Assembly (NCBI RefSeq): GCF_035083965.1 | Contig: NC_089722.1 | Coordinates: forward strand, 41,062,197 to 41,126,196 | Length of the DNA: 64,000 nt | Source: Branchiostoma lanceolatum | Taxonomy: Eukaryota; Chordata; Leptocardii; Amphioxiformes; Branchiostomatidae | Direction of reading: 5' to 3' | Shown: one piece after another, positions 15,401 through 63,081 of the stretch | Layout of the letters: each line of letters starts with the position of its first letter | Numbering within the stretch: the stretch's first letter is position 1 | The notes under the pieces: generated by a model | The model's database searches: none | Seen by the model: only the letters and a program-made list of their open reading frames with translations | What the model was told of the DNA's origin: nothing | Translations under genes and position numbers: made by a program

Positions 15401-18400
15401 GATCTGCACGATGCTCTGGTGGCGAGGCTCCTTGGGTTCAGACACGATGTCCACTTCCTCCGGCTCATCCGGCTTTGCAGCCTTCTCCTCAAGCTCACCC
15501 TGGGGTGGGAAATAGTTGTGTGTCAGGAAAGATTATTCTTTTTCAGTTGAAAAGTGATACTAGGTATATGTAAGGTAAGATTTAAAATCCCCATAGTGTG
15601 TAGATATCTCAATGAATATATAACTTACTCAATGCATGCACCCATTTGGAGAGTAGCTCAATTTTGAGAGACAGTGACAAAGTAAGCACACATAATAAAC
15701 TGTACCATAGCAAAACTGCACTTGAACCTCAAACTTGTCATCTGAATAGAATCAAATATCTGTGACTTATATCAAAAGTACTGTCTCTGAGAGCAGTAGT
15801 TCCAGCTTCTTTAGCTGCAAAACCTGAGCATATATTCTACGTTTACACGTTCTCACAAACACTCTTTCTCATAATGTTTTGGATCTCGATTGTGATGGCG
15901 ATGTTAAAAAAAAATTAATTCGTCTGTTACAGAAAGTCCTATCTTTGAATATTGGTCATCATCATCATTTATTTATTTAAGGGTCCCCAGTAGAGCTGGT
16001 ACACGAGTTAAGGTACAGTTCCGGACCTGCACCTGTACCTAAACTACTTGTTCAGAAAATGGTAGATTTTCAATAAGGACAAAAGCATGTTTGAACTGGT
16101 AACAACATAATATTTAATTGTGCTGGGTATTATTTTCATGAAAACACAGATGAAAATTTGACTCCAGCCTTGCAAATGTGCTTTATGTGCTGGAGTATAG
16201 TATTGATGTGGCTTTAGTGCACTACCACGGTAATTTAATTGACTGTACCCGGTACTGTATTTTCACACCCACCTGTTTTTTCTGCAGCTTGCTGATCTGC
16301 TGCTCCACCTTGGCGATCTCCCGGTCCACCCGGTCCATGGACTGGAGAAGCTCCTCCTTCGACAGTTTGGAGGGTGAGTCTTTCCCTCCCCCCTCCTCTA
16401 CACAGGACGGCTGTCGGGAGGGCGACACGGCCTCAAGCTTAGGCACAAGAGCCGAGCCCTGGGGGGAATAGTGTAACATTCATTTATCGTTCATAGATTC
16501 ATCTTTCGACAGCTTGGAGGACAACACTGCCGCAAGCTTAGGAACAAGCAAGAGCAGAGCCCTGGGGGGAATATCGCAACATTTATTCATCGTTTAGACT
16601 CAATTAGAGATTTATCCTTCGACAGTTTGGAGGGCGAGTCTTTCCCTCCCCCCTCCTCTACACAGGACGGTTGTCGGGAGGGCGATACTGCCTCAAGCTT
16701 AGGCACAAATCTAATACAAGGCATCTACTACTTTGTTGTCTTTGTTCTGAAGAGAGTTTACTCCATGCCAGTGGTCAGTCCATACATCATACATGACACC
16801 AACAAATTCCTATGGTCGACAAGGAAACAAATAAAAACAAACAACACTCACCCTCCTGTGGTCGGAGGAATACCCCATGTCTGCCCCAGAGCTCATGGCG
16901 TGCGCGGCCCCTCGGGCCAGGGCCGCCTCATGGCTATCCTGGGGGGCCAGCCGGGGCCGCTTGTGCTGCGGGGCCTCCGACAGCTCCGACTGGGCGTGGT
17001 GCCCCATGTGGTAGGAGGTGTGGCCACGCTCGTACATGTGGCGGGAGTCCGGCATTCTGAAATAAAATGATACAGAAAATCATTGTAGTATTCCCTAAGA
17101 ATGGCCCACGCTACTGCGGCATCGCCAAAAAATTGTTATTCAGCAACATGAAATTATGTAAATTTGTCTGAGTGAGTAAAACCTTATCACAAACCTTACT
17201 GCCTCTTGAATATGACATTCTTTAGCTAACTTAAACAAATACAAAAATCTTTGTTGTATTACATGTTTACAATTTTGAAGTTAGAAACCAGGTTTTGTTC
17301 TACTTCATTTGATGCAATTCGAAAAAAAAAAAACTTCGAGCCATGTAAAACCTCGGAAACAAACTTCATGACTTATCAATATCCCTACATCCTCACCTGT
17401 CCCCACTGGCGGGATGTCCCTGGAACTCCGAGAGGAGCGACGGACGGCGGCGCATCTGTCCAGGCGGCTGGCCCTGAGGCAGGGCGTAGTGCGGCGTGTA
17501 GTCCTGCGGCCTGGCCTGGGGTAAGGTCCGGTACTCACTCACAGTGGACAACTCCTGTAAAACAGGGGTGGAGGAGGGTGTTATAATTACATGTATACAA
17601 CATCACACAAGCCATCTCTAGGTTTTTCTAAAGAGGGGCGCTGCGGCAAGGCGTAGTGTAGTCCTGGGACCTTGCCTGCGGTAATGCCCGGTACTCGCTC
17701 ACAGAGGACAACTCCTGCAACAGACAGGGATGGAGAAGGGTGTTATAATTACATGTATACAACATCACACAAGCCATCTCTAGGTTTTTCTAAAGAGGGG
17801 GGCTGTGGCAAGGCGTAGTGTATTCCTGAGGCCTGGCCTGCTTGAGCGACCGGTACATATACTCACTCACAGTGGACAACTCCTGCAACAGACGGGGATG
17901 GAGAAGGGTGTTATAATTACATGTATACAACATCACACAAGCCATTTCTAGGTTTTTCTAAAGAGGGGCCCTGCGGCAAGGCGTAGTGTAGTCCTGGGAC
18001 CTTGCCTGCGGTAGCGCCCGGTGCGTATACTCACTCACAGTGGACAACTCCTGCAGACATAGGAATGGGGGAGGGTGTTACATGTAGATGTTTTCAACAT
18101 CACACTCACAAGCAAGGGGTTTTTCTAAAGAGAGGAAGGGAGAGGGGCACTGTGGCAGGGCGTAGTGCGGCGTGTAATCCTGCGGCCTGGCTTGGGGTAA
18201 CGCTCGGCAATGCGACCTCATGCTCGTACCACACTTCCCCTTACCCTGGGGAGCAGATTTTCTGACATGCAAAAAATTTATCTGCGGCCACAGTCAGACA
18301 GTTATTTTCCCCCTCAAGAAGACTCTGAGTCAGTATATTCCGTTTTCACTTAAAATCATCTAAAACTCCACATCGGACGGGGGAAAATCCACACAATCTC

Positions 18401-24357: not shown

Positions 24358-24472
24358 CTACTCCCTTAATTTATTTTCTAGCTGCAGGAGTTTCTGGTAG
24401 AACTGCTCGGCTGTTGCCAGGTTGATGTCCAGTTTCTCCCTGTCCTCGTAGGCCGTCCCCCACACATTACAC
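24358..24472 (-). CDS. Candidate terminal exon, coiled-coil-like C-terminus
   Basis: An acceptor (CACCAGCAG) is followed by an open frame of 37 codons ending in TAG at 24358-24360. It contains YEDREKLDINLATAEQF and ends NKLRE, an amphipathic helix-like tail. I do not recognise the protein. The NLR gene just upstream has a GTGAGT at 26035-26040 overlapping its stop codon. If used as a donor, that site would join this exon in frame after the last LRR, replacing the stop. The donor is weak (ACA before GT), so the exon may instead belong to an unseen gene or be dead. Confidence 0.3.
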
Positions 24473-24890
24473 CTGCTGGTGTACTTACACAGGGGTCCAG
24501 ACTGGAGGGCACCTGTCGGGACAGCCACACCTGTAAAAAACACACCTGTTAGCACACCTGTTAGCACACCTGTGGTCCCCACACCTTACACCTGCTGGTG
24601 TACTTACACAGGGGTCCAGACTGGAGGGCACCTGTCGGGACAGCCACACCTATAACAAACACACCTGTTAGCACACCTGTGGTCCCCACACTTTACACCT
24701 GCTGGTGTACTTACACAGGGGTCCAGACTGGAGGGCACCTGTCGGGACAGCCACACCTGTAACAAACACACCTGTTAGCACACCTGTGGTCCCCCACACC
24801 TTACACCTGCTGGTGTACTTACACAGGGGGTCCAGACTGGAGGGCACCTGTCGGGACAGCCACACCTTCAAAACCTGTAAAAGAACACAC
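24473..24890 (-). repeat. Tandem array of four units of about 115 bp, each with a mini-exon-like core
   Basis: Each unit contains, on the minus strand, an acceptor-like TTACAG, a core starting GTGTGGCTGTCCCGACAG of about 42 bases, and a donor-like GTAAGT. Spacers are made of CACACCTGTTAG-type repeats. The most upstream core has one extra C, which changes the frame relative to the others. It lies just upstream of the candidate terminal exon. Confidence 0.7.
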
Positions 24891-26036
24891 TTTTTAGCAC
24901 ATCCAGGTATAACTGCAATGGAATAAAAAATTGCAGGCATGCAAACATCAGTCATTGCAAGTGAACTTTTGCCAAATAGATTAAAATGGCAATAACATTC
25001 TTACATTGAAAGACTGCATTCTTTGAATAGAGAACATTCTGTTAGAAATGAAGTTCTATTCTGATTATCACATAATTATAATCAAAAAAGCTAATTTAGA
25101 TATAGCCAGCTAATTTAGATATAGCCAACAATTGTATATAGTACCAGTAACCTATTGTTACAACAAAGTCAGACACAGTTTACTGACGCATGTATGTTTT
25201 TCCTATGTTTTTATCATGTATTTGCAATTAGCCCACGGGCATGAACTTGCAATAAACTTCTTATAATCAGCCTTATTTATTCCTAAAGAGCTTTTAAAAC
25301 TGTTGCACTGGGGCTTTAGCAAAGTTTTATGTTTTCAGGCCTTGAAATTAACTTGTTTCCCTACTGTGTTGTATTTAGCAGCTCTAACTATTTTAATGGA
25401 AACAAATGGAAATTAGTTCTACATCAATGTCATCAACATATTGGCATTGCCACACAAGTTTATATACAACCCCACAAATATATAGTATGCTGACCTCAGT
25501 TGAAACAATGTACAGGTCAGCATGTTGGGAACTCAGAACAGCATCAAGCAGCTGGCTGTGGTGTCCGCTCCCTCAGGAACTAGATCCCTACTGTAGCTGT
25601 ATAAAGGAACAGAACGTGGGAGTAAAACTAATGATTAACAAGAAATCCCCCCAATTGGCCTAAACCAATTGGTGCCACATAAAGTCTTTTCATTTGACGT
25701 CATCTGTACCATGTTAGATTAAAGCGTACACCTGTTCAGTACATGAAGATGCTACTGCTTGATCCAATTACAAGTATCTGCCAACATGGTCACCTTAGGA
25801 TTCAAGTTGTAATCATTATGAGGTCAATGAAAAGCCTGAATAGGATCGATGCACACTTAAGTTTGGTATATAACCTTATTGAAGAATATGTTCCAGAACA
25901 GGTGTGTATCTATCAGGTACATTTATCAGTAGTGCAGTCTTGGACTTGTGCAGCAAAAGTCAATTGAAAGACCACTGACTTAGAAATGTATCCCTGGAGT
26001 AGAGCATACCTATAGGATATTCAATATATATATAAC

Positions 26037-29000
26037 TCACTGTAGCCTCTCCAATGTTGGGTGTTCCTCAGCAGCCTGCACCACAGCCTGGAACCCTGCA
26101 GGCTCCATGGGGATGTAGTCAAGGTCCAGCCACTTAAAGGCAGGGAGTCTGGGTAGAGCCTCGGCCAGAGCCATGGCAGCTGTGTCAGGTAGGTGTACAG
26201 GTGTGTCCCAGTGACCAGACATGTTCAGCGTGGTCAGTGCCGGCAGTGCGCTGATGAGCTGTGTGACCCTACCCAGTCCGGCTCCTGTTACTCCACTATT
26301 CCTCCCAATGTCCAGCTCCTGTAGTGTGTTATTATAGTGAGGGGCAGTGGTCAGACTGTTGTCACCAGGGTTTTGCTTCATGTCCAAACTGCTGGGCTGG
26401 CAGAGTGTTTGCACCAGTGAGACAATCCCTGAGTCCCCTATGTGACTGCCTCTCACATCCAACACCTGTAACTGCACAAGGTAAGGCAAGGCTTTGATCA
26501 GGGATGATATTCCCTCGTCAGTGACACCTGTATATCTGAGATTCAACACCTTCATGGCTGTGAGGTGGTGGAGGATAGCAGCCAGGCATTCCAGCCCGGG
26601 GTCTCCTATGGCATTATGACTAATGTCCAGTTTGATGAGTCTGGTTAGCTGACACAGTGCAGGGACCAGTTTGCGCATGCTTGTGGGGCTGATACTGGTG
26701 TTGAACAGGACCAACACCTGCATGGCAGTGAAGATGGGGAGGACGGCGATGAGAGACTCCAGCCCAGTGTCACCGATCAGATTACTACTAATATTCAATT
26801 CTGTCAGTCCCACTAGGTGGCCCATGTAGGGAGCCAGGGATGACATGCCCACAGCTCTCATACCAACTCCCAACCATGGCCCTCCAAGACAGAGTACAGC
26901 CAGGTGTGGAACACTGGACAGCCCAATCTGTAGGACTTCCATCCCAGCATCACCAAGGTCACGGTTGCCAGCAAGATCCAGCTCCTCAAGCAGAGACATG
27001 TGACTGAACCCCTCCACAAGTTGCTGGAGTGATGATGGTGTTAGGTCTACGCATGACAGTTCCAGTGCTCTCAGACAAGGAACATACTTCAGACCTGAAA
27101 CCAGCCTGGCTGTCTGGTTAGGTGAGTCAAACCTTCCTGATAGTTTCAAGTCCAATTTAAGTCCAGGGAGTGAAGTTGTAAAACACTGCTGTAAGTACTG
27201 AACTGTGTCTCTGCTATCAGTGCCTCCACGGATCTTAATTATGAGTCTGTCTGGAAGGTTTGCTGCACGAAGATTTTGTATGTAATACTTAAGAGCTGTG
27301 GCTTCTCTACTGTTGGTGGAGCCGTCCAGCATAACGATTGGAAGGGCTTGACTGATACCCTGAAGCACTTCTGGTTCCTGTCTCTCACTAAGGATGGTCA
27401 GGCACAAGGATGCAAACCTTTCATAGGTTTTGCAGAACTTTTGCATGTCTTGATCCATTGGCACTTGTGAACATTCAAATTGTTCAGGTCGTAAGTGTGT
27501 GAACTCTCTGTTGCTGAGCTTGCTTAGTTCCTCCATTACAGCTTGTGCTGCTCGTGAGTCACAGCCACACGTGAACTGAAGCAGGTTACTGAGTTCAAAT
27601 ACCTTTGTTATGGAGGTGAGCTGCAGCAGCTCTACAATGTTCACTTGAGCATAATCAACATATCGTCTGGCAAGGAATTCTTGCATGGTCTTGTGGGAAA
27701 AGTTCAGCTGTTTCCTAGGATGCAATCTAGAGGAGGAAACCTCCAAGGAGACCACACCAAGCTTTAACAGCAGCTTCCAATTAACCTTTTCTCTCTCTAC
27801 TTCTGTAAGGTCAAGCAGGGTTTCATTCCTCAGCAGTGCCTCTAGCGCAAGCTTGCCAAGCTGCAGTAATGACTCAGTAACCTCTACAGGCAGGCCTTCT
27901 GTTGGCATGTCCACTCCTTCCCGCTCACAGTACTTTCTAACCAGACATGTCAGCAGGTTTTCGTACAGCCCTGTCATTGTTAAAGTAGACACCATCTCTT
28001 GGTCCTCCTCCCACAGGAGACAAAGCAACATCAGGAACATTGGGATCTGGAATAGGTTGCATAATAGTTCCTGATCCTTGAGAAATACAGCAGTTCCCAA
28101 ACGCCTTAAGTACCTTATTTCTTTAGTGACTATGAAATATTGCATAATGAGCGTCTTTGCCAGCTCAGGATGTTTTGTCATGACAAAGTATTCCTGCACA
28201 TATTTCACCATATGTTCAGGGGAGAAGCCCATGATGTGCACTTGATAGTCTGGCCGGGTGTGCTGCTGCACTCCTGCTGAGGGTCGGGAGGTGATCACAA
28301 TCGTGCTGTTGGGGTACATCTTGCCAGACAGTAGTTTGGGAATGGTCTGCCCAGCTGCCCTGGCCTCAGGCCGCAGCTCATCATACCCATCTAGGAGGAA
28401 GAGCACACGGGACTCATTCATCTGTAGGATTTCTCTGATGGACAGTACATCAATACCTTCAGCTGTCTCGGGAACACACTGGTCCCACACCATCTCCTCT
28501 ATGGTCTCCCCCTCTCTCACCTCCCGGAGTCGGATTAACAGAACGATGTCGTGCCGTCTGCCCAGCTCTGTTTTCTGTGAGACGGCATCTAAGGTTTCTT
28601 TGGACAGAAACGTTGTCTTCCCCCCTCCGGCTTCACCCTCAATCAGAATGCACCTTGGAGCTGTGGACAGTCTGGTGACATCTGGGTTGAACAAGTCATC
28701 TAGCGACTTCAGTTCTTTTCTTTCTTCTTTCCTCATTGATTCCGACCTATTAATAGTATTATCTTTTTCCAATATCTTATAGTGTTTTTTTTGTTTTTGT
28801 ACCAACTCCAATTGGGTGAAGATATCACTGAGGTTGAGTGTGTATTCGTCGTTCCAGATCAGAGGCTTAAAGTGAGTTAGTTTTAACTCATAGTACTTCT
28901 TCACAGATTTCTGGAACACATCTGGAATAGAGAGGTTTGTGTGATCGATTTCAAATACAAACTTAGTGAGAAAGTAACTTAGGCAAAGAGCAAAGACAAC

Positions 29001-32000
29001 ATTTCAGAGAATAAAGTTGTCAGCTCATGGTACTTGATGACAGAGTTTTGCAAGTTTAATTGATCTGCAATAATGAGTACTGGTACATGTACCTTAAGTT
29101 CTGCAATAATGAGTACTGGTACATGTACCTTAAGTTGATATTGCCTTTTACTATATATATATATATATATACATATACATGTGTATATCAAGGACTTATT
29201 CTACTTAATGGTCTATCAGGGTATATTTTGTTAATTCAAAGATAACCTGTATGTCACAAAAAGTACCGGTAGACCAAACTTAGATGAGATTTCCTGTACT
29301 GTAATTTGCCATTTAGAAATTAGGAATGGTCTGATTCACACCTGTCAATGAAGAGTCTGTTCCTGCAGCTCCAACTGGACCTGCAACTTCTGGAAGAGAA
29401 CAGAGAAGGTAACATTTATGATAATATTCAGCAAAATGCTCGGTTTTTATCCTTTTTTCAGCAGACTCTCTAAATATCTCTAGGGGAATTACAGACCAGA
29501 AAATTTTGGGTTTTGTCGATAGTGGAAGTATTTAACCCTCTCATAGTGATTTGATTATAACTATTCTTCTTTACACCTGCCAGCTTCAATCAAAGTAATG
29601 AGATATAAGACTAAGAGAAAACGTCAATTTCAAAGAAGCAATTTTAAAGCAATTTTAAAGTCAATTGATTTCAACTTATGGAATATAATGTTTCAAAGGA
29701 ATAAAAAGGAAATCAAAATATAAGCAAATATTAGGAAGAAATCTGAGACTACAAAGTTTTAGAATTTCCTACCGAGAAACTCCTTCCTTAGACCATCCAC
29801 AACACTCTGCAGGTTTGCCTCAGACAGAGCCTCCATCAGGACCTCTATAGTGGCTCTCTCTCCGTTACGCTTGAGCCATTCCTCCAACAGGTCCATACGG
29901 CGAGACTTGTCATCTCGGTTTCTTCCATCGATGTTGTCGATGTCAGACTGTTCAAACCCAAGATGGAAGGCCAGGTCCTTCCAGTCTGAGCTGACCTTTT
30001 CTTTGATGAAATAGAAGTACTTACGAGCATCTGTAAAACAAGATAGAATATTAAGTGTTACTGTACAGATCATCCCAATTTTTTTTTTCAATTTTGCCTG
30101 CACTGCTTGTTTTCTTTGCCTCTAGTAGTAGTGCCACTGTAACATTATTACAAGTATTACAGTATTATTAGCCCTGGCACAGGTAGACATAAGAAATACC
30201 TGGCAGACCTTCCATTTTACTATTTTATTATTGCGCTAAAATGAACATAAATATGCAAATGGTATTATGACCCAAAGTTAAGAAATCAATGTGCCTAGCG
30301 CCTACATTGTACCACTCTCTACATCCTACCGGTACCATATATGGAGCCCCTCACCTCCCACTGGTAACCCTTCCTCTCTACAAGGAGCTGGTTTCTTCTC
30401 CACAGGAAACTCTTCTCCATCCTCCCCCTTCCTCTTCAGCTGGCTGAAAGAGGGTTGGGGTGAACCTGTCTCAGAGAGATGGATTCAAGTATCAGTAATG
30501 CTCTCAATAGCTTCTCCAGAAATGTTGCATTGACCACTGTTTTTCCATAGCGTAACAGCGTTCATACTCGTCTGTTACCTGTTAAATTTCATTCTAATTC
30601 CTGCGAAACTTGATGTGGACACACTTTTGTATCTACTTTACCTTTTAACCTAAACATTACAATCTACTTATATGTACAATATCAAAGGTAAACTCACAAT
30701 CAAGACTTGCATAGTGGTTCTCGGCATAATGCCCCAGTAGCAGAGGCGGTTCTTTTCTGGCCGCAGTCCCGGTACATGGCGTCAGGATGGTGACGTAGTT
30801 CTCCGCCTCTACACTGGACACGATGCTGACGTCATGACCAAACATGTCTGCCATGGCCTGTAGGACAATGTGGTCTCCCCACGTCCCATCACGTGACATG
30901 GCGTCCAGGTAACCTTCCCAGTTTTGATTTGGGACGAAGGCACTGAGATGGTCACCGTTGTCCTGAAAGTACAATTTTAATCAGAACATCGGCATCAGCG
31001 TTGCGTCTATCGATTATATTCATATGCATATCGATTGTTTTGTCAATATTAGATGAGCTAATTTCAAAGACAAATGCAAGTCAAACCTGATCACGTTTCG
31101 CTCACAATTCGGTTATGATCATCAATGTGAGGCAACCTAAAGACATGTTATGTTACCATAAATATTGTTAAAACATTCGAGCGTTTGTCAGTATAGTTAA
31201 AGTTCTCTCACATTGTATGGGTTATCTCTTAAGAAGTCGACTGCCCGGTTCCGCAGCTGCACGTGACTAATGTCCTTCCCCTCTGTACGGAAGAGTTGAT
31301 CGGACACGGCGTGAAACATGCAGTTTCCGTCCTTCGGCACCTCAGCACGGAAGGTCAGACATGCCTCTGCCACGTGCCTGGCTAGTCTGTTGTAGGTGTC
31401 AGTTTGGGTGCCGTCCTCTATTCTCACCTCTGTCAACAGGTGCTTCAACCTCTCAAAGTCATCTATAAACAAGAAACAGCATCATTTTGATGTATTATGT
31501 CGGATGCGCAATCATGTTTACTGCTTTAAGTCCTTAAATGATAAATAAGCACAGTACACCTACGCTTCCCTTCTCCGCATTAATCATATCGCCAGATCCC
31601 CACTCTTTGTATGTTACCTGCATCTTCAGACTCACTCAGAGTATAAATTTGTATCTTGCATTCTTTTTGTCAATGTATGTCTATGTCTAATCACACAGCT
31701 TTTTTTTAAAACATAGGTCTAGATTAACTCTAGTGTAGGTAAGTAATGTATTACATGCTGTTAAAATGAATGTTACAATAAATTTAGATCAATAAAGACA
31801 TACAATAAATCTGTCATGATTTTCTATTGTTTAAATGGTTTATGAAACAATCAACTTCACCTACCTTCCTCTCTTGGTCTTTTGGCTGGGACAGTGGGGT
31901 TCCTTCTAAGCCCTGCGGGTATAAAATTGAAAACGAATAGTGTTTTCAACGAGAGTCAAAGTTCAACCTACAAATATGACGACATTCATGAATTGTCGGT

Positions 32001-33172
32001 TAGTGAAAAATGCTGCCGGACATTAATTCTGAGGGTTTACGGAGGGTGGTCTATTTGTTCACACGTTGTTCCCTTAATTGATTGTTTAAAGCCTTGGCAA
32101 CAACCTTATGCAAACGTAGCCATGTTGTTTACTTACGACGCCATTTTTGTGCCCACGAAGACGTGCATGGCGTCCGGCCATGTTAAGTGTTCTGGCGAGT
32201 ACGTAGGCCTTAGAACAAATTTTCATGACAACAGAATAGCCACATTAGACTAAAGACACGCAAACAATTCAGGACAGCTGTTAACTAGAAACACTGCCCA
32301 CAGTCCCAGGAGAATAGGTGTGCATTACTAGGATATTGATACATGAACCTTGGTCTAACGCTTGATCTAAACGATCCAACCTAGCGTACATGACTTGTTC
32401 AACCTAAAGCACAACGTTGAGGTGTTCAACGCCGTATACATGCGTGTTCCATATTCTTTGTTTTGTTGACGTGACAAAAACGTTAACCTCACACATATTA
32501 CAACGCATTTCACTGCCACCTCCGTCAATATTGCGTGTAAGGTTCTGAATGGAGCCAAAACAGCAATATAATTACTGACTCAGACTGTAAAATCGTCACC
32601 AACTTTGTATTTGTCATAGCAATTGATGTACACTGACATGCAGATTCTGTATACATATAAGTTTCAAGACAATTATGGATTGTAATCATTGTATCAAACA
32701 CGTAAACATGTTGATGTTTCGTACAAATAGTCCTACGATCATTGTGTGACATATCTTTCCTTTCATTCTCAGCAACCTGACCCAATGGCTTGTATTTCTC
32801 AAGACAACGCTGCTGTTGAAATATTAAAAAGTTATTACAGACATCTTTTCTTTCTTTTAATGCAACCGCCTTCATCACATACAAGAAAGTTGACATACCT
32901 TTCTTTTCATTCTCAGCGATCTTCTCTGCCTTCTCGGCGTAGTCGTGTCTGCCGATTTTTCTCAACAGGTCCGCCAGAATGGCGAGATCTCCCGGCCTTA
33001 ACTTCTGTACTTTCTCCAGTTGGTTAAAGATCTGGTGAGCGTTGGCTTTTTCCACGAATCCCGCTGGTAAAATGTTCGCACCGCTGACATAGTTGCGGAG
33101 ATCTGTTAGTTCTTCATGAACAAGATTTCTAGATATCTCCAGGTACAGATCCTGGCGAGGATTGTCCGCCAT
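26037..33172 (-). CDS. DED-OTU-Death-NACHT-LRR protein (NLR-type receptor with an OTU protease domain)
   Basis: Predicted cytosolic NLR-like sensor carrying a deubiquitinase-like domain. Coding exons in order: 32899-33172, 31865-31912, 31212-31462, 30698-30962, 30355-30465, 29773-30030, 29342-29389, 26037-28921. Every junction is GT/AG and in phase; CDS is 4140 bases, 1379 residues. Domains: death-effector fold (about 8-86, ending GRHDYAEK); OTU protease (about 110-280) with KDGNCMFH (Asp152, Cys155) and GHYAENHYASL (His274); Death domain (about 317-400, SDWKDLAFHLGF); NACHT with Walker A GEAGGGKTT (514-522) and Walker B LFLLDGYDEL; then about ten ribonuclease-inhibitor-type LRRs to the end. 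Lancelets are known for DED/Death-NACHT-LRR families; the OTU insertion is what is unusual. The start ATG sits in AAATGGCGGAC. Weak point: the join between the DED and OTU exons rests on one short 48-base exon and phase agreement, so transcript evidence would be decisive. Confidence 0.85.
28922..29341. repeat. NLR intron with a 37-bp tandem duplication and TA repeat
   Basis: The unit CTGCAATAATGAGTACTGG plus GTACATGTACCTTAAGTT occurs twice in a row (about 29064-29135), followed by a TA dinucleotide run at 29152-29170. Nothing coding. Confidence 0.7.
31913..32898. repeat. NLR first intron, with a partial copy of the DED exon 3' edge
   Basis: About 32748-32785 repeats, with several substitutions, the 3' end of the DED exon and its donor (on the gene strand GAGAATGAAAGGAAAGATATG, against GAAAAGAAAGGTATG in the real exon). 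The remainder of the intron shows nothing recognisable. Confidence 0.5.
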
Positions 33173-35245: not shown

Positions 35246-35440
35246 TTAACTCCCTTTGCAGACGTATGACGGTAGCGCGAGCCCCGTGTACACCGTGACT
35301 TCCCCCTTCCCAACGTCGAAGGCCGGGCGCACGGGGTCCTCGAACTTGGCGTGGAACGTGTAGATGTGCTCCTTTTTTATCGGGTTTAAGAAGGACAGTG
35401 TACCCTTGTCCTGCTGGATTTCCAGAGGAAAATAGAACCC
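35246..35440 (-). pseudogene. Second copy of the TRIM SPRY terminal exon (decaying)
   Basis: Encodes the same last SPRY residues as 35644-35830 (GTLSFLNPIKKEHIYTFHAK through ALPSYVCKGS and stop TAA at 35246-35248), with about 6% base differences. The first part has diverged, and the candidate acceptors at 35443-35448 and beyond put the reading frame out of phase with the upstream donor at 36513-36514. It therefore cannot replace the normal last exon without a frameshift. It may be an inactive duplicate or serve only as 3' UTR. Confidence 0.7.
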
Positions 35441-35643
35441 CACTGCTGAAGTAGTTTAAAACAAAGGCTACTAGTTTGATATTGCTCATTTTTAGTTACT
35501 TCGCTTTACAATAACTGCATAGCCACGGGTACAACGTGCACATTCTAGAAATACCCTCAACCTGACATTTCTTAGGGCTAGCAGACGGAACAAGCATGTG
35601 CAAACCGACAATTGTCGGGCTCAGCAGGACTAGGACTAGGGTT

Positions 35644-36825
35644 TTAACTCCCTTTGCAGACGTAGGATGGCAGCGCGAGCCCCGTGTACACCGTGACTTC
35701 CCCCTTCCCCACGTCGAAGGCCGGGCGGACGGGGTCCTCGAACTTGGCGTGGAACGTGTAGATGTGCTCCTTCTTCATGGGGTTATAGAAAGACAGTGTG
35801 CCGCCGGTGTAGTTCAGCAGCACACCAACCCTGCGGAAAATTACAATGAAAGAGCTTTATTGTGTGTTCATGCCAAAAAGTGATTGGCTACAGTTTGTCT
35901 ATGATATGACATATGACAACAAAACAAACAACCAATGACGACAAACAGACAAATAAACAAACAATTAAAAACGACAAAGAAACATATGGAAGTGTACATA
36001 ACAGTCCTATTCAATTCAATGTAAAGCCGACTTTAACTGTAGGTCCTGCATGGGTCTGCTAGTACCCAATGTGAGCCCTTCACCAGGGCTTTCTAGTGGT
36101 TATGGAGATTAGAATTGGGCAAAAGTAGGGTTAATGATTTGCCATGCGAGTAAGTCCGCAAAAAGCTCATTTCCCCATTGCGAGGGAAGTGTTCCCACAG
36201 TTTCCCTATAGCAAGTGTAGAATAGTTTAACCTCCTTGTTAATACCGCAAGGAAACCTCGGAGTCTTGTTTATGCTAGGGTCACATTTCCTAACCGGGGC
36301 CCGGCCGGGCTGTTTGGGGAAAGGAAAATCTAAATGTATATCAATAAATTTGCACAAGCCATGCTCTTAGATAATTTTGGGTAAGTTTTGTGTTTTTGTT
36401 ATCTTTTATATCATTCTTAATGTTCCGAAAGACTGCCCGACCAGGCCCCAGATTGGAAATGTGACCCTAGCATAAGACTACTCAATATTAGACGAGCGTG
36501 ATTCATGCTATTACCTGTTCTGCACGGGCGGCAGGGAGAGTTGCACCACCTCCCCCGCGTGCAGCGCCGAGTACTCGTGCAGGTACCGGTCCACGCACCA
36601 CGAACTCTCGTTCTCGCCCAGCGCCTGGTCTCGCGGGAACTTGTCGGACGCCACGCCCACGCGATAGAAGATGCTCCGAGAGACGTCCACCTGTAAGAGT
36701 TGGAGTAGTCTTGGTCACTTTGTTTGCTGTCTTATCCTTTCCTCCAGCTTAATGGAATCTAATATCTACACGCACGTACGCGGACACACACAAACACACA
36801 CACAAACACGCAAACACACTCATCG

Positions 36826-36897
<72 letters not shown>

Positions 36898-36949
36898 CGT
36901 GACAGTACACATACACACACACACACGCACAAACACACACACACACACG

Positions 36950-36992
<43 letters not shown>

Positions 36993-39900
36993 ACACACTG
37001 ACGCTCACCTCCCAGTAGTGAATGCCGCTTGAGAAGCTAACGTCCCCCATCGCAATGCTGTGCTTGCTGAAGCGGTTTGGCGCGTCGAAGGTGCGTCGGG
37101 TGGGCAGGCTGTCCGGATCGTAGCTCATCGTGCTGTTGTTGTTCGATATGCGGATGTACTTGTGCGCCGTCTTCGGGTCCAACTCGAACTGCATCCCAAC
37201 GCCTGCAAGCAAAAAGTCATTGATTGCTTTATTGATTGATAGAGTGGGAGAGTGAGTGAGGAATTGGTGCGTGCGTGCGTGCGTAAGTGTGAACGAGTAT
37301 GTGAGTGAACGAACGAGTGGAAGAAGCAAAGAAGGAAAGGAAGAAAGGGAAGAAAGGAAGGATGTAGGAAAAATGAAGAAGGAATTTGAAGGAAGCGTTC
37401 GAGATATCCTGGCGGAAGCGACCATAGGAATGGACGTAAATTAGCCATTATTTTTAATTAATAAATGAGTTAATGAATTCAAGCGATTACGAACGAAGTG
37501 TACAGCGTTGCCCTAAGACCCTGCTTTTAGAATAGTTACCTTTTCGACTCTTTCTCTTGAAGAATCCCGGCAACCTCTGCGCTAACGACTGGCGCTGACT
37601 CTCTTCCTCCACAACTTCCGGCTCCGGACTTCCTGTGAAGGCAGAACGAAACAAGTTTCAATTCGTGAAGCTAATAACGAAACAGTGATATTGATAATAA
37701 TAATATAATCAAGTCAATTAGCAATAGCTAACTTCGCATTCTACCAATACAGCATTGTGCACTGAGGCACCAAAGGCACTACAGACTTTCAAATGTTGTA
37801 TTCATAGATTCAGCTTTATTTTTCTACAAACAAGAAACTTTGACACCATTCACATTATCATACCTCTCTGGAAGTCTAGTCTGATGAGAGTGTCGATGTA
37901 CTGTGAGACGTCGAAGTCCAGCGGCGTGAGATGTTCACTGGTGACCGGGTACAGGGACAACTGGTCCATGGCCTGGCCTTTTACCCTGGCAATACAACAA
38001 GGTTATAAAGCAAATGTACAGTAATGTGTCGACGATGTCTGAGCTAAGGGCAATAGTCCGCCTAGTAGTCACTAAAAATAATGATCATGATTTTCGTCAT
38101 AACGATATAGGTTATTCTATGTTCAAGCAACCAATAACTAACCGTGGGCCAACCAAACAAACGCTGCTTAAGACGACAAGTGAGACTTGTTAGTCATCAG
38201 ACGCTTAGATTGAAACGGGTGAAAAAATTACTTACCGGTCCTTTAGCGTCTTTGCAGTCTGGAATGAATGATGAGAGAAATTAAGCAGCTTTGTTAAAAG
38301 CATTGTGTATCGTGAGTGTCATAGCTTAGGTGTTTTTAACACGCGGAACGGATACAACAGTTTATCGGAAATGAAATGATATCTATTCATAACTTTACAC
38401 CTGTGTTACTGGTTTCAACAATTCAGAAATGTCTTAGGTATAAGGAAACGGAGCTATACGAACCTGGAGACATTTCGCAGGGGCTCCTTTATCGAGAAGT
38501 TCCTGAGCTGTGTCTAAAACCTCCCTCACTTTGTCCAACTCCTGGGTACAGCTGGTCATCTGCTGGTCCAGACTTTCCCGCCTCTCGTCCTCCTCTCGCG
38601 AGATTTCGTCCAGCAGGGCGTTCTTCCGCTGCTGGATGACGGAGATGAGCGCATCGCAACCCTCGGTCACCATGTGCTTCCGCTGCGATGCGTTTGTCTG
38701 TAATCAACACGGCGCCTTGTTTTTGCACAAATATATTTTTCAGCATCAATGCTCAAAATGATTTTATAATGTAACAGATTGGTTTCCAATGTGTCATCTA
38801 TTTTTTCTGACCTTTGCAATGAAGGTTGTGGCACAACGCACGGCATGACGTTTCTGCTTCTTCTATTCACAGTGGGTTTTAGTCACAAATACATCTGTCA
38901 ACACATCTATTCTTTGTTACCTTGTGAATTCTCTTAATGACATAGCTATGTCGCAGAGCATTTTTCAACAAGACTTCGTTTCACATTTATGCCTAAAAAT
39001 AGCTGGTACATATCACATTATTGCTCAAAACGGCACCGTTACTGGGGTGTCGCCAAAATATCACCATTCGAATCGCGACGTACAAATCTTAAGTTCTGAT
39101 CCTATCTATCAAATGATCTTTTTCTCAAACAGTATCAAGAAAAATGTAAATTACAAGTTTTAAAAGGAACCATGCATGGAATGACACGAGGAGATAGACA
39201 AGATATCAATTAACATGCGTGTTACGACCCGAAAGGTGTCATAATTATACCCCGGAAACTAGACCCCCGAGACAGGTGATCCCAACACACCTGCACTGTC
39301 CCAGAACGTAATTAGCCTGGTTTCAATCAAGCCCCGTATCTGCTCGCCGCCTGTAACGGCCATCCACCCAGATACCCCCGGACAGCTGGAGTTTGCGTCG
39401 TACAGACTAGAACGTAATGTGCACACGCGGGACTCGAGGCGATCAGCCTAGCTGGTGAGTTGTTTGTATTTATCAACTAGTGATCAGTGGCAAAGCCAAC
39501 TGTTAACAATAACTAGGGAGCCTTTTAACCCTGACTAGCTATAGCATAGTACCTCAGTTGTAATGCGTTAGCATAAATGTACAGGATTGTCTTGTAGTCA
39601 CAATAGAATTCATCTGTTGGATATTTCGTCAATGCTGCATTAGAATATCGTCCATTTAATAATTTTCAACACATTCAAGATTCGGAAACTATAGACTGGA
39701 TATCCTTAGATACGCAAACGTGACCTATACGATACATTCTGTCGCAGTAGCCTGCATAGCAGGCTCTATTTGCCTTTTCTTGCTTATAATACACATTTTG
39801 CTGATGACCTCTTTTTGTACTGGGAGGTTTGTGCAGCCGGCCCGGACACCCAGTACAAAAAAAAAAAAAAAAAAATCATCAGCAAAAAGTGGATTTATAA

Positions 39901-41213
39901 GCCAGAAAGGCCCATAGATCCTGCTATGGAGGTTATTGTCGAAGTGCCCATCACACCTGTACTCACCTCGACTCTTTCACTGATGGTTTTCAGCTTCTCC
40001 ACAAAGTTCTCCACACTCTCGGTCTTTGTTCTTAAGATCTCGATGTTTCTTGAGAACGCGTCCTTAAGAGAAAACGGGCCGGGAGTAAATATTTAGTCAG
40101 CTGACAAGGAGGATAAGTACCTAAGCTTCAAAACAAGCGTCAGCTTTGTACAGTATTGTGGAATGATATTGCATTTGTATCTTCGTTTAAAACCATGATA
40201 CCCAGCTACGTATATTCTTCTGGACTGAGAGCTGACAAATATGATATAGCATGTCTTAAAAAGAGAACTTTTATGTAAATTTCTAAGCAGATGTTGGGTA
40301 CCGGAAGATCGTACAACTTGCCCTCCTAGCAAAAGAACGTCTTGAAACCGGAGAAGTTAAGGGTCGTGTGTCGGTAAGACGAAATAGGCTTGATAGAGAG
40401 TACGTGTTGCTCGATCTTTTCATCTTAACTTCTAACTTAAGGTTAAAGTCGAAGTTACCTTTCTTCTTGACCAGGCGTCTTCCAGTTGTAGAAGGGTGTG
40501 GTTCTTGTGGTCGTACGCCATGCACTTGTAGCAAACAGGCCGCTCACAGGGGTCGCAAAACATCTTCAACTCCAGGGCCTCGTCAGCGTGGTCCTGACAG
40601 GTGGGCGCCTCGGGCCCCCTCGCGTTTGCCCCCGAGGACTGCGCCGCCAGCTTCCCCTGCTTGCATCGGTCCACCATCTGCTGCAGGACCAGGTTCCTTT
40701 GGAGAGAGTCCACGGATCGAACGACGACATCGTAGCGACACTCCGGGCAGGGGAACATGTGAACGCCGTACGCCGTGCCCCCGCGGGATTCGATCAACCC
40801 CCGCACGCACTCACGGCACAGGTTGTGGCAACAGGGGAGAAACAACGGCTCCGAGAAGACATCCAGACACACCGGGCAGCGGAGCTCCTCCGGAAAGTCC
40901 ACCCCGTCAAGTCCCGGTACCGCCGACGCCATGTTAGCCGACGAGTGGTAGTGCCTCCGCCTCCTCTCATTCGGGCAGGCCTGTTAACACACACACACAC
41001 AAGCACCGTGAGGTCAGGGCATGAAAAATAAAACGCTCCTTTAACCAAATGTTGAACCAACACTATTGACACAATGCCGATTACGGCACGCCTTACGCTA
41101 CCAAGACAAAGGCACCGAGAGGGGAAAACAAAGACGAGGAACCAACTCACCTGCGATCGGACACCTGTTGAGGGAGCTAGGCGCAGGTCGGGGGCAGAAA
41201 ACACGCGCTCCAT
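35644..41213 (-). CDS. TRIM-family RING E3 ubiquitin ligase (RING, B-box, coiled coil, COS-like, SPRY)
   Basis: Predicted E3 ubiquitin ligase. Exons in order: 41151-41213, 40459-40980, 39967-40062, 38464-38697, 38236-38258, 37864-37985, 37540-37632, 37009-37202, 36515-36690, 35644-35830. Phases join cleanly into 569 residues. The 96-, 234- and 23-base exons are the classic TRIM coiled-coil pattern. RING: Cys56-x2-Cys59 to Cys99-x2-Cys102. One B-box (149-182), no first B-box. Coiled coil about 196-305. A COS-like segment (LDFDVSQYIDTLIRLDF), a linker, then PRY/SPRY about 370-569 (HYWEVDVS, GTLSFYNP). No fibronectin III domain was found between COS and SPRY, unlike MID/TRIM9 proteins. The first exon is inferred; an ATG at 40930-40932 in the RING exon is an alternative start. 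The exact orthologue is not recognised. Confidence 0.87.
36776..36993. repeat. (CA)n microsatellite in a TRIM intron
   Basis: Over 200 bases of interrupted CA dinucleotide repeat next to the donor of the exon at 37009-37202. The translated Cys/Val or His/Thr frames are artefacts of the repeat. Confidence 0.95.
38698..39966. other. TRIM intron, with one foldback element
   Basis: Apart from 39751-39932 nothing was recognised. The stretch around 39240-39420 is more GC-rich than its surroundings, but no exon could be defended. Confidence 0.45.
39751..39932. mobile_element. Foldback MITE, arms about 75 bp
   Basis: The left arm starting CCTGCATAGCAGG is matched in reverse complement by the right arm ending CCTGCTATGGAGG. 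Shared inner blocks are GCTTATAA, TTTTGCTGATGA and TTTGTACTGGG. An A run lies near the loop. Identity of the arms is roughly 85% by eye. Confidence 0.7.
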
Positions 41214-58645: not shown

Positions 58646-61600
58646 TCATCTCTCGTTCCCATAGACGAGAAGAGAGTCGGCAGACTCCGTTTTCTCGTGC
58701 TCGTTGCCGTATATTACTGGAGAAGCGGAGGCAACCCCAGATTCTTCGTTCTCATGGACTACCTGATAGGCATGAGATATTACCTCTTCGTGTTCAATGC
58801 CATAGATACGTCGAGAAATAGCAGAAACAACCTTCTCGTTTCCATAGACGCCCTGGGAAGCAGATGCTTCCGTCTCATGTTCATTACCATAGATACGTCG
58901 AGAAGTAGTAGAAACAACCTTCCCGTTTCCATAGACTTCCTGGGAAGTAGATGCTTCCACCTCATGTTCGTTACCATGATAGATACGTCGAGACGTAGCA
59001 GACACAACCTTCCCGTTTCCATAGACGTCCTGGGAAGCAAATGATTGGCCACTACCATAAATGCGTCGAGACGTAGCAGAAACAACATTCTCCTTTCCAT
59101 AGACGTCCTGGGAGGCAGATTCCTCCACTTCATGCTCATTATCATAAATGCGTCCAGACGTAGCTGACACAACCTCCTCGTTTCCATAGACGTCCTGGGA
59201 AGCAGATGATTGGCCACTACCATAAATGCGTCGAGACGTAGCAGGAACAGCATTCTCCTTTCCATAGACTACATAAGAAGCATCGGATGCTACCTTCTCA
59301 TGTTCCTCACCATAGATGATATGAGAAGCAGAGGATTCTACGTTCTCATCATCATTCTTACACACAGGAGTGTCTTGTTCATGCTGGGAATCATCAGATA
59401 TCACTACCCCCTTATTATTTACATGCATGGAAATACGATGCTCTGTAGCAGAACTCACAGGTAATATCCCCTTATGAGCATATTCATGCTCGCTTATTGA
59501 CTGGCCAGCTACAATATTTACAGCTTCCGTTTCATCCTTAACATGACAATGATTGTCGTTTGCAAACGTATCAGCGTGTTCTCCAGCAACAGATCTGATA
59601 TGATGATTTTCATACACGTTAATTTGCTGCCCTGTTACATCATCAACACTATCATTTTCAGACATAGCCTCTTGTTGCCCAGCTACAGAATGAACTAATT
59701 CTCTTTTATCATCGATATCAACACTATTATTTTCATCCATATTAATTTGTTGCCCAGCTACAGAATCAACTGATTTTGTTTCATCATCAACATCATAATT
59801 TTCATACATACCAGTGTGTTGCTCAGCTACATCATCTACTGAGACTATTTCATCATCAACATTATCATTTGCATACATATTAGGTTGTTGCCCAGAATCA
59901 GCAGATCCAATATTCTCCTCATCATTTTCATACACGCCAAGTTGTTCTACAGCTACATTATCGACATTATCGTTTTCATACTTGTTTAGGTGTTTCTCAG
60001 AAGCAACAGATTCTGTTTCAGCATTTTCATACACATCGACTTGTTGCCCTTCTACATTATCAACAACTGCTGGATCATCAAAATCCTCATGATTTTCATA
60101 TGCTATATTTTGTTGCCCAGTCTCATCATTAAGATCGACAGTCATCCCGACAGCATTTGCCAATGCAAAGCTTCTCGTGCCACCGGGAATGGTCAAAGTT
60201 ATGCCTGCTCTGACAATAGCTGTTGGGATCACAGCATGCTTGATTTTTTTGGACCTTTTGTAATACCAAAGAGCCATGGCAATGGAACACATGATTAGCA
60301 GTCCCAACAAGACCCCACTAATCAGAACAGGAATAGATAGAAATGTTGGGTCAGTGTCAATACTATCAATTGGAAAAAAAGTTGTCGTCTTCGTCGTTAC
60401 TGTAGACGACGTAGAAGGCAAAAATTGGGTGTAAACTGACGATGGGATTTGGACACCAACATATAGCGAAGCGGAGGTAGAGCCATTAAGACCTGCTGCA
60501 ATGCAAACGTACAGACCGGCATCTACTGCGGTAACATTTCTTACGATGATGGTACCATTAGCCTCCACAGTCACCCTCCCACCTGACTTAACAGTTGCAT
60601 TCTTTCCAGATGGGAGGGTGAATGTGATGTCTGGTGTTGGGATTCCTTCAGCCTCACAGTCTAAATGGCGTATTTCCCCTAGTACCCATGTCGTGTTTTC
60701 ATCCCCTTTAAAGCTCACAATTCTTGGTTCTTCACAGATCAGATCTGTGCGTTTGATATTTTCAAGGTTTTGTCCACTGACGTTGTCGGGACCCACACAA
60801 ATAATATCTCTGCCCCTATAATAGCGCAGATTCTGAAGTAAATTTAGCACAATTTGCCTAAAGGGAACAATTCTACAGTCGCACTGCCAGGGGTTGCTGG
60901 ACAGGTCCAAGAATTTGAGCTGAGAATTAAGAATTGAACTGAGACCCGGCTGAATGTGCGTTATCTGATTATGGTCTAGATCTAACCATCCAAGCTTATT
61001 TAGATTTGAGAATGTATCGGGTTGAATGTTAGCTATCCGATTGTGGGATAGATGCAAGTTGAGGATCAGGTTTGAAAACGCCCCAGGTTTGATGTTTGTT
61101 ATATGGTTGTAGGACAAATCCAACCATTTGATATTTGGGTTTGAGAATGCACCGGGTTGAATTTCAGTTACGTTGTTATAGCTAAGGCGGAGGTCTTTGA
61201 GACTGGGTAGATCTGAGAATGCACCGGGATGAATGTAGGTTACCTGATTATGTTCTAGCCTCAACAGTCGGAGCTGGGGTAAATTTGAGAATGTTCCAGG
61301 CTGAATCTGGGTCATCTCATTATGATGGAGGTGCAATTTCTCGAGCTTGAGTAGATTTGAGATCGCACCAGGCAAGATACGGGTTATCGTATTATTCTCC
61401 AGGGCAAGATGTGCGACCTGGGGTAAATTTGAGAATGTTCCAGGCTGAATCTCGGTTAGTTCATTATTCTTTAGGTCCACTTTCTCGAGTTTGAGTAGAT
61501 TTGAGAATGCGCCAGGATGGATACAGGTTATCTGATTATGGTAAAGGGGCAAGTCCTTGAGCTTTGGTAGATTTTGAAACACTCTAGGTTGAATGTGGGT

Positions 61601-62650
61601 GATTTTATTATGGCTAAGGGCCAACCATGTGAGCTGTAGTAGATTTGAGAATGTACCGGGCTGAATGTGGGTTATCCGATTGTTTGAGAGAAACAATTGG
61701 TCAAGTTTGAGTAAATTTTGAAAAGCCCCAGGTTGTATCTTTGTTATCTGGTTGTTGCACAGAGACAAATCGAGAAGCTGAGGCAGGTTTGAGAACGTAT
61801 CAGGTTGAATTTCTGTTATCTGGTTGTGGCACAGGTCCAACTCTTCGAGCTTCAGGTTGGAGAAGGTACCGGGATGAATTTTAGTTAGGTTGTTGTTTCG
61901 CAGGTCCAGATTTTGGAGCCTTGTGACATTTGAGAATGCACCCGGAAGAATGTTTGTAATCTGGTTGAAGCACAGGTGCAACTCTGGAAGCTGGAGAAGA
62001 TTTGAGAAGGTATCGGGCCGAACGGTTGAAAACTGGTTATGGTCAAGATGCACATCTTGGAGCTGAGCCAGATTTGAGAATGGACCAAGCTGAATGTCAG
62101 CTATCTGGTTGAACTGAAGGTTCAAAGCATTGAGTCGGGGAAGATTTGAAAATGCATGAGGTTGAATGTGGTTTATTCGGTTCTCAGAAAGGTATATCAA
62201 TGTGAGCTGCGACAAATTTGAGAACGTACCAGACTGGATTTTAGTTAATTGGTTGTTTTCTAGTGTCAATGATAAGAGCTGGTGAAGATTTGAAAATGCA
62301 TGAGGATGGATGTGGGCTAATTGGTTATCGGACAGGTCCAATGTTTGGAGATGGTTTAGATTTGTGAATATACCTGACGGAATGTTGGTTAGATTATTGT
62401 TTCGTAAATTCAATTTCTCCAACTTCGTGTACCTTGAGAAGCCAGACTCGTGTAATGATTTGATGACGTTGGATTGTAAGCCGAGAAAGGTGAGTCGTGG
62501 GCTTAGATCTTGCGGAACACTGCGAAGGTCGTAGCCGGAGCAGAGACATCTGGTGTACGGGTGATAACAGTAGCTGTTACAGGGTGTGGACGGTCCAGTT
62601 CCCATGAAGATGATGAGCAGTAGGACCAGAAGTCTCGACATGTTCCACAT
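58646..62650 (-). CDS. LRR-Ig single-pass receptor with multi-YxN cytoplasmic tail
   Basis: One uninterrupted 1334-codon exon. Signal peptide about 1-23 (SRLLVLLLIIFMG); about 22 tandem LRRs of 24 residues (about 50-585, consensus NQITxIQPGTFSNLxxL); cysteine-rich LRR cap starting NPWQCDC (about 583-640); one I-set-like Ig domain (about 640-735, with LDCEAEG and DAGLYVC); Ser/Thr stalk; transmembrane helix about 774-797 (LISGVLLGLLIMCSIAMALW); then a 537-residue tail. The tail has fifteen Tyr-x-Asn motifs (YEN, YGN, YAN, YDN), the pattern bound by the Grb2 SH2 domain when phosphorylated. They sit in two repeat blocks; the distal block is coded by near-identical DNA repeats at 58650-59280. There is no TIR domain, so it is not a Toll-like receptor. 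LRR-Ig genes are strongly expanded in lancelets. A TTTTATAG acceptor-like site just before the ATG suggests a 5' UTR intron. The exact orthologue is not recognised. Confidence 0.9.
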   Translation of the reverse strand: MWNMSRLLVLLLIIFMGTGPSTPCNSYCYHPYTRCLCSGYDLRSVPQDLSPRLTFLGLQSNVIKSLHESGFSRYTKLEKLNLRNNNLTNIPSGIFTNLNHLQTLDLSDNQLAHIHPHAFSNLHQLLSLTLENNQLTKIQSGTFSNLSQLTLIYLSENRINHIQPHAFSNLPRLNALNLQFNQIADIQLGPFSNLAQLQDVHLDHNQFSTVRPDTFSNLLQLPELHLCFNQITNILPGAFSNVTRLQNLDLRNNNLTKIHPGTFSNLKLEELDLCHNQITEIQPDTFSNLPQLLDLSLCNNQITKIQPGAFQNLLKLDQLFLSNNRITHIQPGTFSNLLQLTWLALSHNKITHIQPRVFQNLPKLKDLPLYHNQITCIHPGAFSNLLKLEKVDLKNNELTEIQPGTFSNLPQVAHLALENNTITRILPGAISNLLKLEKLHLHHNEMTQIQPGTFSNLPQLRLLRLEHNQVTYIHPGAFSDLPSLKDLRLSYNNVTEIQPGAFSNPNIKWLDLSYNHITNIKPGAFSNLILNLHLSHNRIANIQPDTFSNLNKLGWLDLDHNQITHIQPGLSSILNSQLKFLDLSSNPWQCDCRIVPFRQIVLNLLQNLRYYRGRDIICVGPDNVSGQNLENIKRTDLICEEPRIVSFKGDENTTWVLGEIRHLDCEAEGIPTPDITFTLPSGKNATVKSGGRVTVEANGTIIVRNVTAVDAGLYVCIAAGLNGSTSASLYVGVQIPSSVYTQFLPSTSSTVTTKTTTFFPIDSIDTDPTFLSIPVLISGVLLGLLIMCSIAMALWYYKRSKKIKHAVIPTAIVRAGITLTIPGGTRSFALANAVGMTVDLNDETGQQNIAYENHEDFDDPAVVDNVEGQQVDVYENAETESVASEKHLNKYENDNVDNVAVEQLGVYENDEENIGSADSGQQPNMYANDNVDDEIVSVDDVAEQHTGMYENYDVDDETKSVDSVAGQQINMDENNSVDIDDKRELVHSVAGQQEAMSENDSVDDVTGQQINVYENHHIRSVAGEHADTFANDNHCHVKDETEAVNIVAGQSISEHEYAHKGILPVSSATEHRISMHVNNKGVVISDDSQHEQDTPVCKNDDENVESSASHIIYGEEHEKVASDASYVVYGKENAVPATSRRIYGSGQSSASQDVYGNEEVVSATSGRIYDNEHEVEESASQDVYGKENVVSATSRRIYGSGQSFASQDVYGNGKVVSATSRRIYHGNEHEVEASTSQEVYGNGKVVSTTSRRIYGNEHETEASASQGVYGNEKVVSAISRRIYGIEHEEVISHAYQVVHENEESGVASASPVIYGNEHEKTESADSLLVYGNER
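58650..59280 (-). repeat. Coding tandem repeats in the receptor tail
   Basis: Near-identical blocks of roughly 100 bases, each coding a motif like SATSRRIYG and SASQDVYGNE, recur about five times, some differing by only a few bases. Such an array can gain or lose Tyr-x-Asn sites by unequal exchange or slippage. Confidence 0.85.
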
Positions 62651-63081
62651 TTGCTCTATAAAAGGAAGAGAAAACGATAAAAACGCTCAACTGCAAAGTA
62701 ATTTTTCTCTTCCAAATTTAGCCAAAACGGCCATGTCGGTTGTGGACAGATTGGAAATTTAGTACCCTCAAATGTACATCTGACGATACGCGTTACACAT
62801 CAAGGATACCAGTGGAGACATCTGTTCCATAACAAATGCTATGGACCTTCTTAGAGTTCAACCAGATTTCCATGATATCATTGACTCAATAGATCATCGC
62901 ATAATGTACATGATATTTGCACAATGACAACCCAAACCTTCCTTAAGAGATCATACATTTCATTTTTGATTGTGCAGATTAAGAACTTGTTTACAATGGC
63001 ATTCACAATGTAAATACATCGGCCTTATCCAAATCAACCTACATGCTAAAAATCATGTCTCTTCTGGAGTTATCCTCTACT
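62651..63081. other. Upstream flank of the LRR-Ig gene
   Basis: A pyrimidine tract and TTTTATAG (gene strand) end six bases before the start codon, consistent with a 5' UTR splice acceptor. No first exon or promoter element was identified. Confidence 0.4.

Follow-up and report, generated by a model that had tools for sequence, protein, structure and literature searches.

Gene organisation of the locus

The window, i.e. the whole 64,000-nt stretch of lancelet DNA that was analysed, carries on its minus strand eight exons between positions 33172 and 26041. The exons have GT-AG borders and, when joined in phase, yield 1,378 residues with zero stops. All seven GT-AG junctions from exon 1 to exon 8 are phase-matched, which bears out the claim of an earlier sequence-only reading that eight exons on one strand join in phase. 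The features of this NLR gene are as follows.

Exon 1, 32899..33172, minus strand: start codon and DED, residues 1-91; donor ranked 5 of 504
Exon 2, 31865..31912, minus strand: basic linker in 1-1 phase, GLRRNPTVPAKRPREE
Exon 3, 31212..31462, minus strand: N-terminal half of the OTU with Asp152-Gly-Asn-Cys155; Pfam OTU E=1.7e-6 alone
Exon 4, 30698..30962, minus strand: C-terminal half of the OTU with Asn273-His274-Tyr275-Ala276; Pfam OTU E=3.5e-7 alone
Exon 5, 30355..30465, minus strand: linker in 1-1 phase, from OTU to Death
Exon 6, 29773..30030, minus strand: Death domain in 1-1 phase; Pfam Death E=3.8e-17
Exon 7, 29342..29389, minus strand: Gly/Ala-rich linker in 1-1 phase
Exon 8, 26041..28921, minus strand: NACHT, winged-helix region and ribonuclease-inhibitor-type LRRs
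Candidate exon 9, 25533..25596, minus strand: last 21 residues and stop, with the in-frame tail HYSRDLVPEGADTTASCLMLF; acceptor score 4.62
Candidate polyadenylation signal AATAAA of the NLR gene, 25276..25281, minus strand: predicted from sequence only

The earlier reading had placed the end of the gene at 26037. This position is indeed the end of a TGA; however, the TGA overlaps a splice donor, so that the gene may extend to an exon at 25596-25533. The acceptor of this candidate exon 9, fifth by score among the 12 acceptors listed, was picked by eye for its LRR-like tail, and with the exon included the predicted protein has 1,399 aa. The introns of the gene range from 232 to 986 nt, and the gap between exons 5 and 6 measures only 324 nt. 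A perfect tandem repeat (36 bases, two copies) is located at 29064-29136 in the intron before exon 8, and a tandem repeat of 107 bases (3.7 copies, 24458-24874) lies a short way beyond the candidate gene end. Lys/Arg clusters were observed in both linkers that flank the OTU (31865-31912 and 30355-30465, minus strand), reading PAKRPREE and LKRKGEDGEE; they might constitute a nuclear signal.

No tandem paralogue of the NLR was found within the window by tblastn with six segments of the model (non-self matches with E of 0.21 or worse). Upstream of the NLR, the nearest gene identified is one of the TRIM type on the same strand (35246-40983). The neighbouring features are the following.

RING and B-box of the TRIM-type gene, 40435-40983, minus strand: Pfam matches
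PRY of the TRIM-type gene, 36823-37440, minus strand: just under the Pfam cut-off (25.1 vs 27.5 bits)
Tandem, near-identical SPRY pieces of the TRIM-type gene, 35246-35455 and 35644-35856, minus strand: E=0.0016 (below cut-off) and 5e-9
GPS2-interacting domain downstream of the NLR, 16225-16479, minus strand: E=2.9e-20
LRR-Ig open frame, 58649-62686, minus strand: 1,346 residues, intronless, tandem repeats in the C-terminal part

The tandem C-terminal SPRY pieces are likely a duplicated exon. We take the gene with the GPS2-interacting domain to be an NCOR/SMRT-like nuclear co-repressor. The location of a ubiquitin writer (TRIM E3 ligase) next to a possible eraser is probably a coincidence.

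Splice sites and linker exons

Splice sites were ranked among the 504 GT and 591 AG of positions 33400-25000 (minus strand), using generic scoring matrices that were not lancelet-trained. The donors of exons 1 to 8 took ranks 5, 4, 16, 21, 1, 35, 6 and 15, and the acceptors of exons 2 to 8 ranks 9, 12, 47, 32, 2, 1 and 5. Accordingly, the donor of exon 5 and the acceptor of exon 7 are the best of their kind, while the weakest sites of the set, the acceptor of exon 4 (47/591) and the donor of exon 6 (35/504), are both moderate.

Since the linker exons 2, 5 and 7 contain no domain, they allow the link between the domains to be tested independently of domain matches. The gap of exon 2 contains 73 candidate 1-1 exons, and exon 2 came out on top with a score of 10.11, the runner-up scoring -1.0. 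Exons 5 and 7 likewise came first among the candidate 1-1 phase open exons of their own gaps (28 and 16, respectively). For comparison, length-matched stretches, which may overlap each other, were sampled on both strands elsewhere in the window, with three intervals only being masked (NLR gene, LRR-Ig frame and RING region). The splice score of exon 2 was reached by 25 of 400 such stretches, that of exon 5 by 15 of 400 and that of exon 7 by 1 of 400; the three exons hence beat 94-99.8% of the sampled stretches. When exon 8 and the LRR-Ig frame (58649-62686) were used to train a codon score, it preferred the frame of the model in six of exons 1-7, the exception being exon 2.

One transcript or several

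In the genomic sequence, exons 5 and 7 bridge the N-terminal death-fold part to the NACHT-LRR exon, with which it is in phase. In our judgement, all modules are probably carried on one mRNA, and DED-OTU-Death-NACHT-LRR is likely a single polypeptide.

The gap between exons 5 and 6 contains an AATAAA at 30224..30229 (minus strand), a putative signal that could terminate a short DED-OTU form. It also contains an ATG (30073) that lies upstream of exon 6 and is in frame. These two elements make it possible that the model joins, only on paper, two adjoining genes, of which the short first one (DED-OTU) would end near 30229 and the second (Death-NACHT-LRR) begin near 30073. Amphioxus Death-NACHT transcripts have been confirmed by RT-PCR (PMC2575513, excerpt), and there is a precedent of a predicted novel lancelet fusion architecture that was refuted by ESTs as an artefact (PMC4967905, excerpt). 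However, two genes would have to fit a 3' end and a promoter into the 324 nt between exons 5 and 6, the ATG at 30073 sits upstream of an acceptor that ranks 2/591, and exon 5, with the best of 504 donors, runs in phase into exon 6. We therefore regard two separate genes as improbable and retain the single gene.

Within a single gene, the OTU could be optional. Every junction between modules is in phase 1, while the sole intron within a domain, that of the OTU, is in phase 0. The frame stays open without exons 3-4, 3-5 or 2-5, and is lost without exon 3 alone (74 stops) or exon 4 alone (64 stops). Splicing could thus yield one form with the OTU (DED-OTU-Death-NACHT-LRR), one lacking it (DED-Death-NACHT-LRR) and perhaps a third, short one of DED and OTU only, and the choice of isoform would switch ubiquitin editing. 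Nevertheless, in-frame skipping of the OTU exons is what phase by itself permits, with no sign of actual use, and removal of the Death exon together with exon 7 likewise leaves the frame open. We consider such an isoform switch rather unlikely and continue with the full-length protein.

Identity of the OTU domain

The halves of the OTU, encoded on separate exons, obtained Pfam scores of 29.0 and 31.2 bits alone and 59.8 bits when joined (E=5e-16), which supports the splice between exons 3 and 4. The joined match is continuous and covers profile positions 2-116 of 128. With this profile match, the earlier label 'OTU deubiquitinase-like' proves right. The nearest solved relatives identified with phmmer are OTUD5 (1.7e-9), OTUD1 (2.1e-6) and OTUD3 (1.3e-4); beyond the OTUD chains, the remaining matches were to OTU1 and to OTUs of viruses and Wolbachia, all of them weak (E 0.03 to 1.4). 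Like these three proteins, the lancelet protein has a small OTU of about 130 residues; its Cys loop aligns with those of all three and its His loop with those of OTUD5 and OTUD1. In contrast to them, its OTU features an Ala at His+2 and is joined to parts of the death-fold and NLR type. OTUD5 is reported to require phosphorylation (PMC3705208, excerpt).

A20 (TNFAIP3) is another OTU in an inflammation-related protein and in this respect resembles the lancelet protein. The comparison with A20 drawn in the earlier reading did not hold, since OTUD5, OTUD1 and OTUD3 are nearest; A20 was absent among the 21 PDB matches to the OTU up to E=10. The catalytic domains of A20-like OTUs comprise 300-350 residues (PMC3705208, excerpt), compared to about 130 in the lancelet OTU. 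An A20-like origin was rejected on the basis of both size and best matches. Short peptide patterns of the OTU yielded no match to viral contigs, and the 30 pattern matches in prokaryotic genome contigs included none that was confirmed; both scans reach close relatives only.

Catalytic site

The Pfam OTU stretch (residues 151-268) ends just short of His274, and in the phmmer alignments with OTUD5 and OTUD1, His274 coincides with the His of these proteins. The catalytic site had been called intact. This applies to Asp152-Gly-Asn-Cys155 and Asn273-His274-Tyr275, which are in place, but not to the position His+2, at which the usual Asp/Asn is missing: the alignments show Asn in OTUD5, Asp in OTUD1 and Ala276 in the lancelet OTU. 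Cys-His-Asp/Asn is the usual OTU triad, with the third residue placed at His+2 by crystal structures (PMC3950621, excerpt). Ala276 thus weakens the case for catalytic competence. In A20, an acidic residue, Asp70, takes the role of the one at His+2.

With the usual triad incomplete, the OTU might be a pseudo-enzyme that binds ubiquitin chains on a signalling complex, or serves as a bait for pathogen interference, and does not cleave. Asp152, Cys155 and His274 are all retained, however, which speaks against this reading. In addition, four Toxoplasma OTUs are described as devoid of the His+2 residue, which is said not always to be essential (PMC10038098, excerpt), and Ala276 is hence not grounds to exclude the lancelet OTU from the deubiquitinases. 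We judge a pseudo-enzyme to be somewhat unlikely; a ubiquitin-cleaving activity of the lancelet OTU is plausible, albeit not assured.

DED, Death and NACHT-LRR parts

The DED encoded by exon 1 was recognised by Pfam in the first 418 residues of the joined protein (E=7e-10), which were also the query for the OTU and Death matches, and in its own open frame alone (2.2e-9). In a single-sequence search of the PDB it was closest to FADD with a non-significant E=0.033; the motif RHDY (residues 75-78), considered with regard to a possible binding of DED caspases, aligns with RHDL of FADD. For the Death domain, the closest solved chain is that of RIPK1 (6.5e-7), followed by THOC1, PIDD, NRADD, ankyrin-3 and FADD, among 35 PDB matches obtained with a query that held some intron read-through. 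DED and then Death, both above the Pfam cut-offs, occur with the OTU between them.

A DED followed by a Death domain is the layout of FADD. The N-terminal half of the predicted protein can be read as a FADD-like DED-Death pair into which an OTU was inserted and to which an NLR was joined, 'FADD-like' being a claim about how it would work only. The order of the two domains and the presence of FADD among the PDB matches of both are in line with this reading, whereas the OTU between the domains and the NACHT-LRR part behind them distinguish the lancelet protein from FADD itself.

Exon 8 matched the Pfam profiles NACHT (E=3.8e-22) and LRR_6 (E=2e-21, five stretches). By phmmer, the best 60 of 76 matches include ribonuclease inhibitor (4e-27), NLRP3 (1.2e-18) and NLRC4 (2.1e-16). 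The NACHT had been described as having Walker A and B, and these are found at residues 514-522 and 592-600, respectively. A sensor-type SRP is located in 627-632 and an FSHxxxQEF motif at 826-836. With a NACHT bearing Walker motifs and C-terminal LRRs, the predicted protein has the NACHT-LRR composition of an NLR. Support for the previously proposed order DED-OTU-Death-NACHT-LRR comes from profile matches as well as from phase and splice sites.

Comparison with known proteins

In amphioxus, DED-NACHT and Death-NACHT proteins have been described, some with transcripts verified by RT-PCR, as part of about 21 NACHT domain combinations (PMC2575513, excerpt). The predicted lancelet protein would share with them a death-fold N-terminus on a NACHT receptor. 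In contrast, the main text of that paper, the part compared, does not name an OTU (zero occurrences of the term); NACHT partner domains are listed in its additional file 4. The same count of zero was obtained for the main texts of PMC8195603, PMC7159879, PMC12909245, PMC11797021, PMC4284660, PMC6071037, PMC8260672 and PMC4852459.

Amphioxus bbtCaspase-1/2 also carries DED and Death in tandem on a single chain, but with a caspase in place of the OTU and NACHT-LRR parts (PMC3196919, excerpt). According to the same excerpt, DEDs are said to replace pyrin domains in amphioxus NLRs, and bbtCaspase-8 is reported to bind bbtFADD1 via DEDs, with co-localisation as prodomain only.

A fused OTU and NACHT/NLR protein was not found in the literature searched, judged by titles and abstract starts among the matches listed. 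Within this scope, the earlier statement that no NLR of this layout has been described agrees with our results. Measured against the literature, the DED-OTU-Death-NACHT-LRR layout may be new with respect to the known amphioxus DED-NACHT and Death-NACHT proteins.

In the lancelet genome, 1-1 exons are reported to make up a raised share, amounting to 51% of shuffled domain exons compared to about 28% of non-shuffled ones (PMC4284660, excerpt). Together with the phase-1 borders of the modules and the frame-neutral pair of OTU exons, this excess makes the OTU look like a shuffled cassette. It may have entered via exon shuffling as a cassette of two exons with phase 1 on both flanks.

Proposed function and implications

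Taken together, our best explanation is one gene for an NLR whose FADD-like DED-Death pair is split by an OTUD-type OTU, and which would combine sensing, death-fold recruitment and ubiquitin trimming. We put this forward tentatively, at slightly less than an even chance; exons, phase, domains and motifs are observed, while we infer all binding, cleavage and direction.

In such a protein, the LRRs would sense a ligand or damage, upon which the NACHT would open, bind ATP and oligomerise. The DED cluster of the oligomer could then recruit DED caspases, and the Death cluster RIPK1- or FADD-like partners. The OTU, held beside the recruited partners, would remove ubiquitin chains from them or from the receptor itself. 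Loss of the chains that keep survival or NF-kB signalling together would favour caspase activation, or would shut off the complex after use; that death, not shut-off, would result is a guess. The complete sequence of events, in which the activated oligomer would collect caspases and RIPK1/FADD-like proteins via the split FADD module and use its own OTU to take off their ubiquitin, thereby turning survival signalling into death within one polypeptide, is doubtful as it stands.

In vertebrates, separate deubiquitinases that act on RIPK1-type complexes determine the choice between NF-kB signalling and death. If the proposal is true, this choice can be wired straight to pathogen sensing, and the lancelet protein would provide a single-chain test system for the decision between NF-kB and death. 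It would also clearly exemplify an immune receptor that gained an enzyme cassette of two exons by shuffling.
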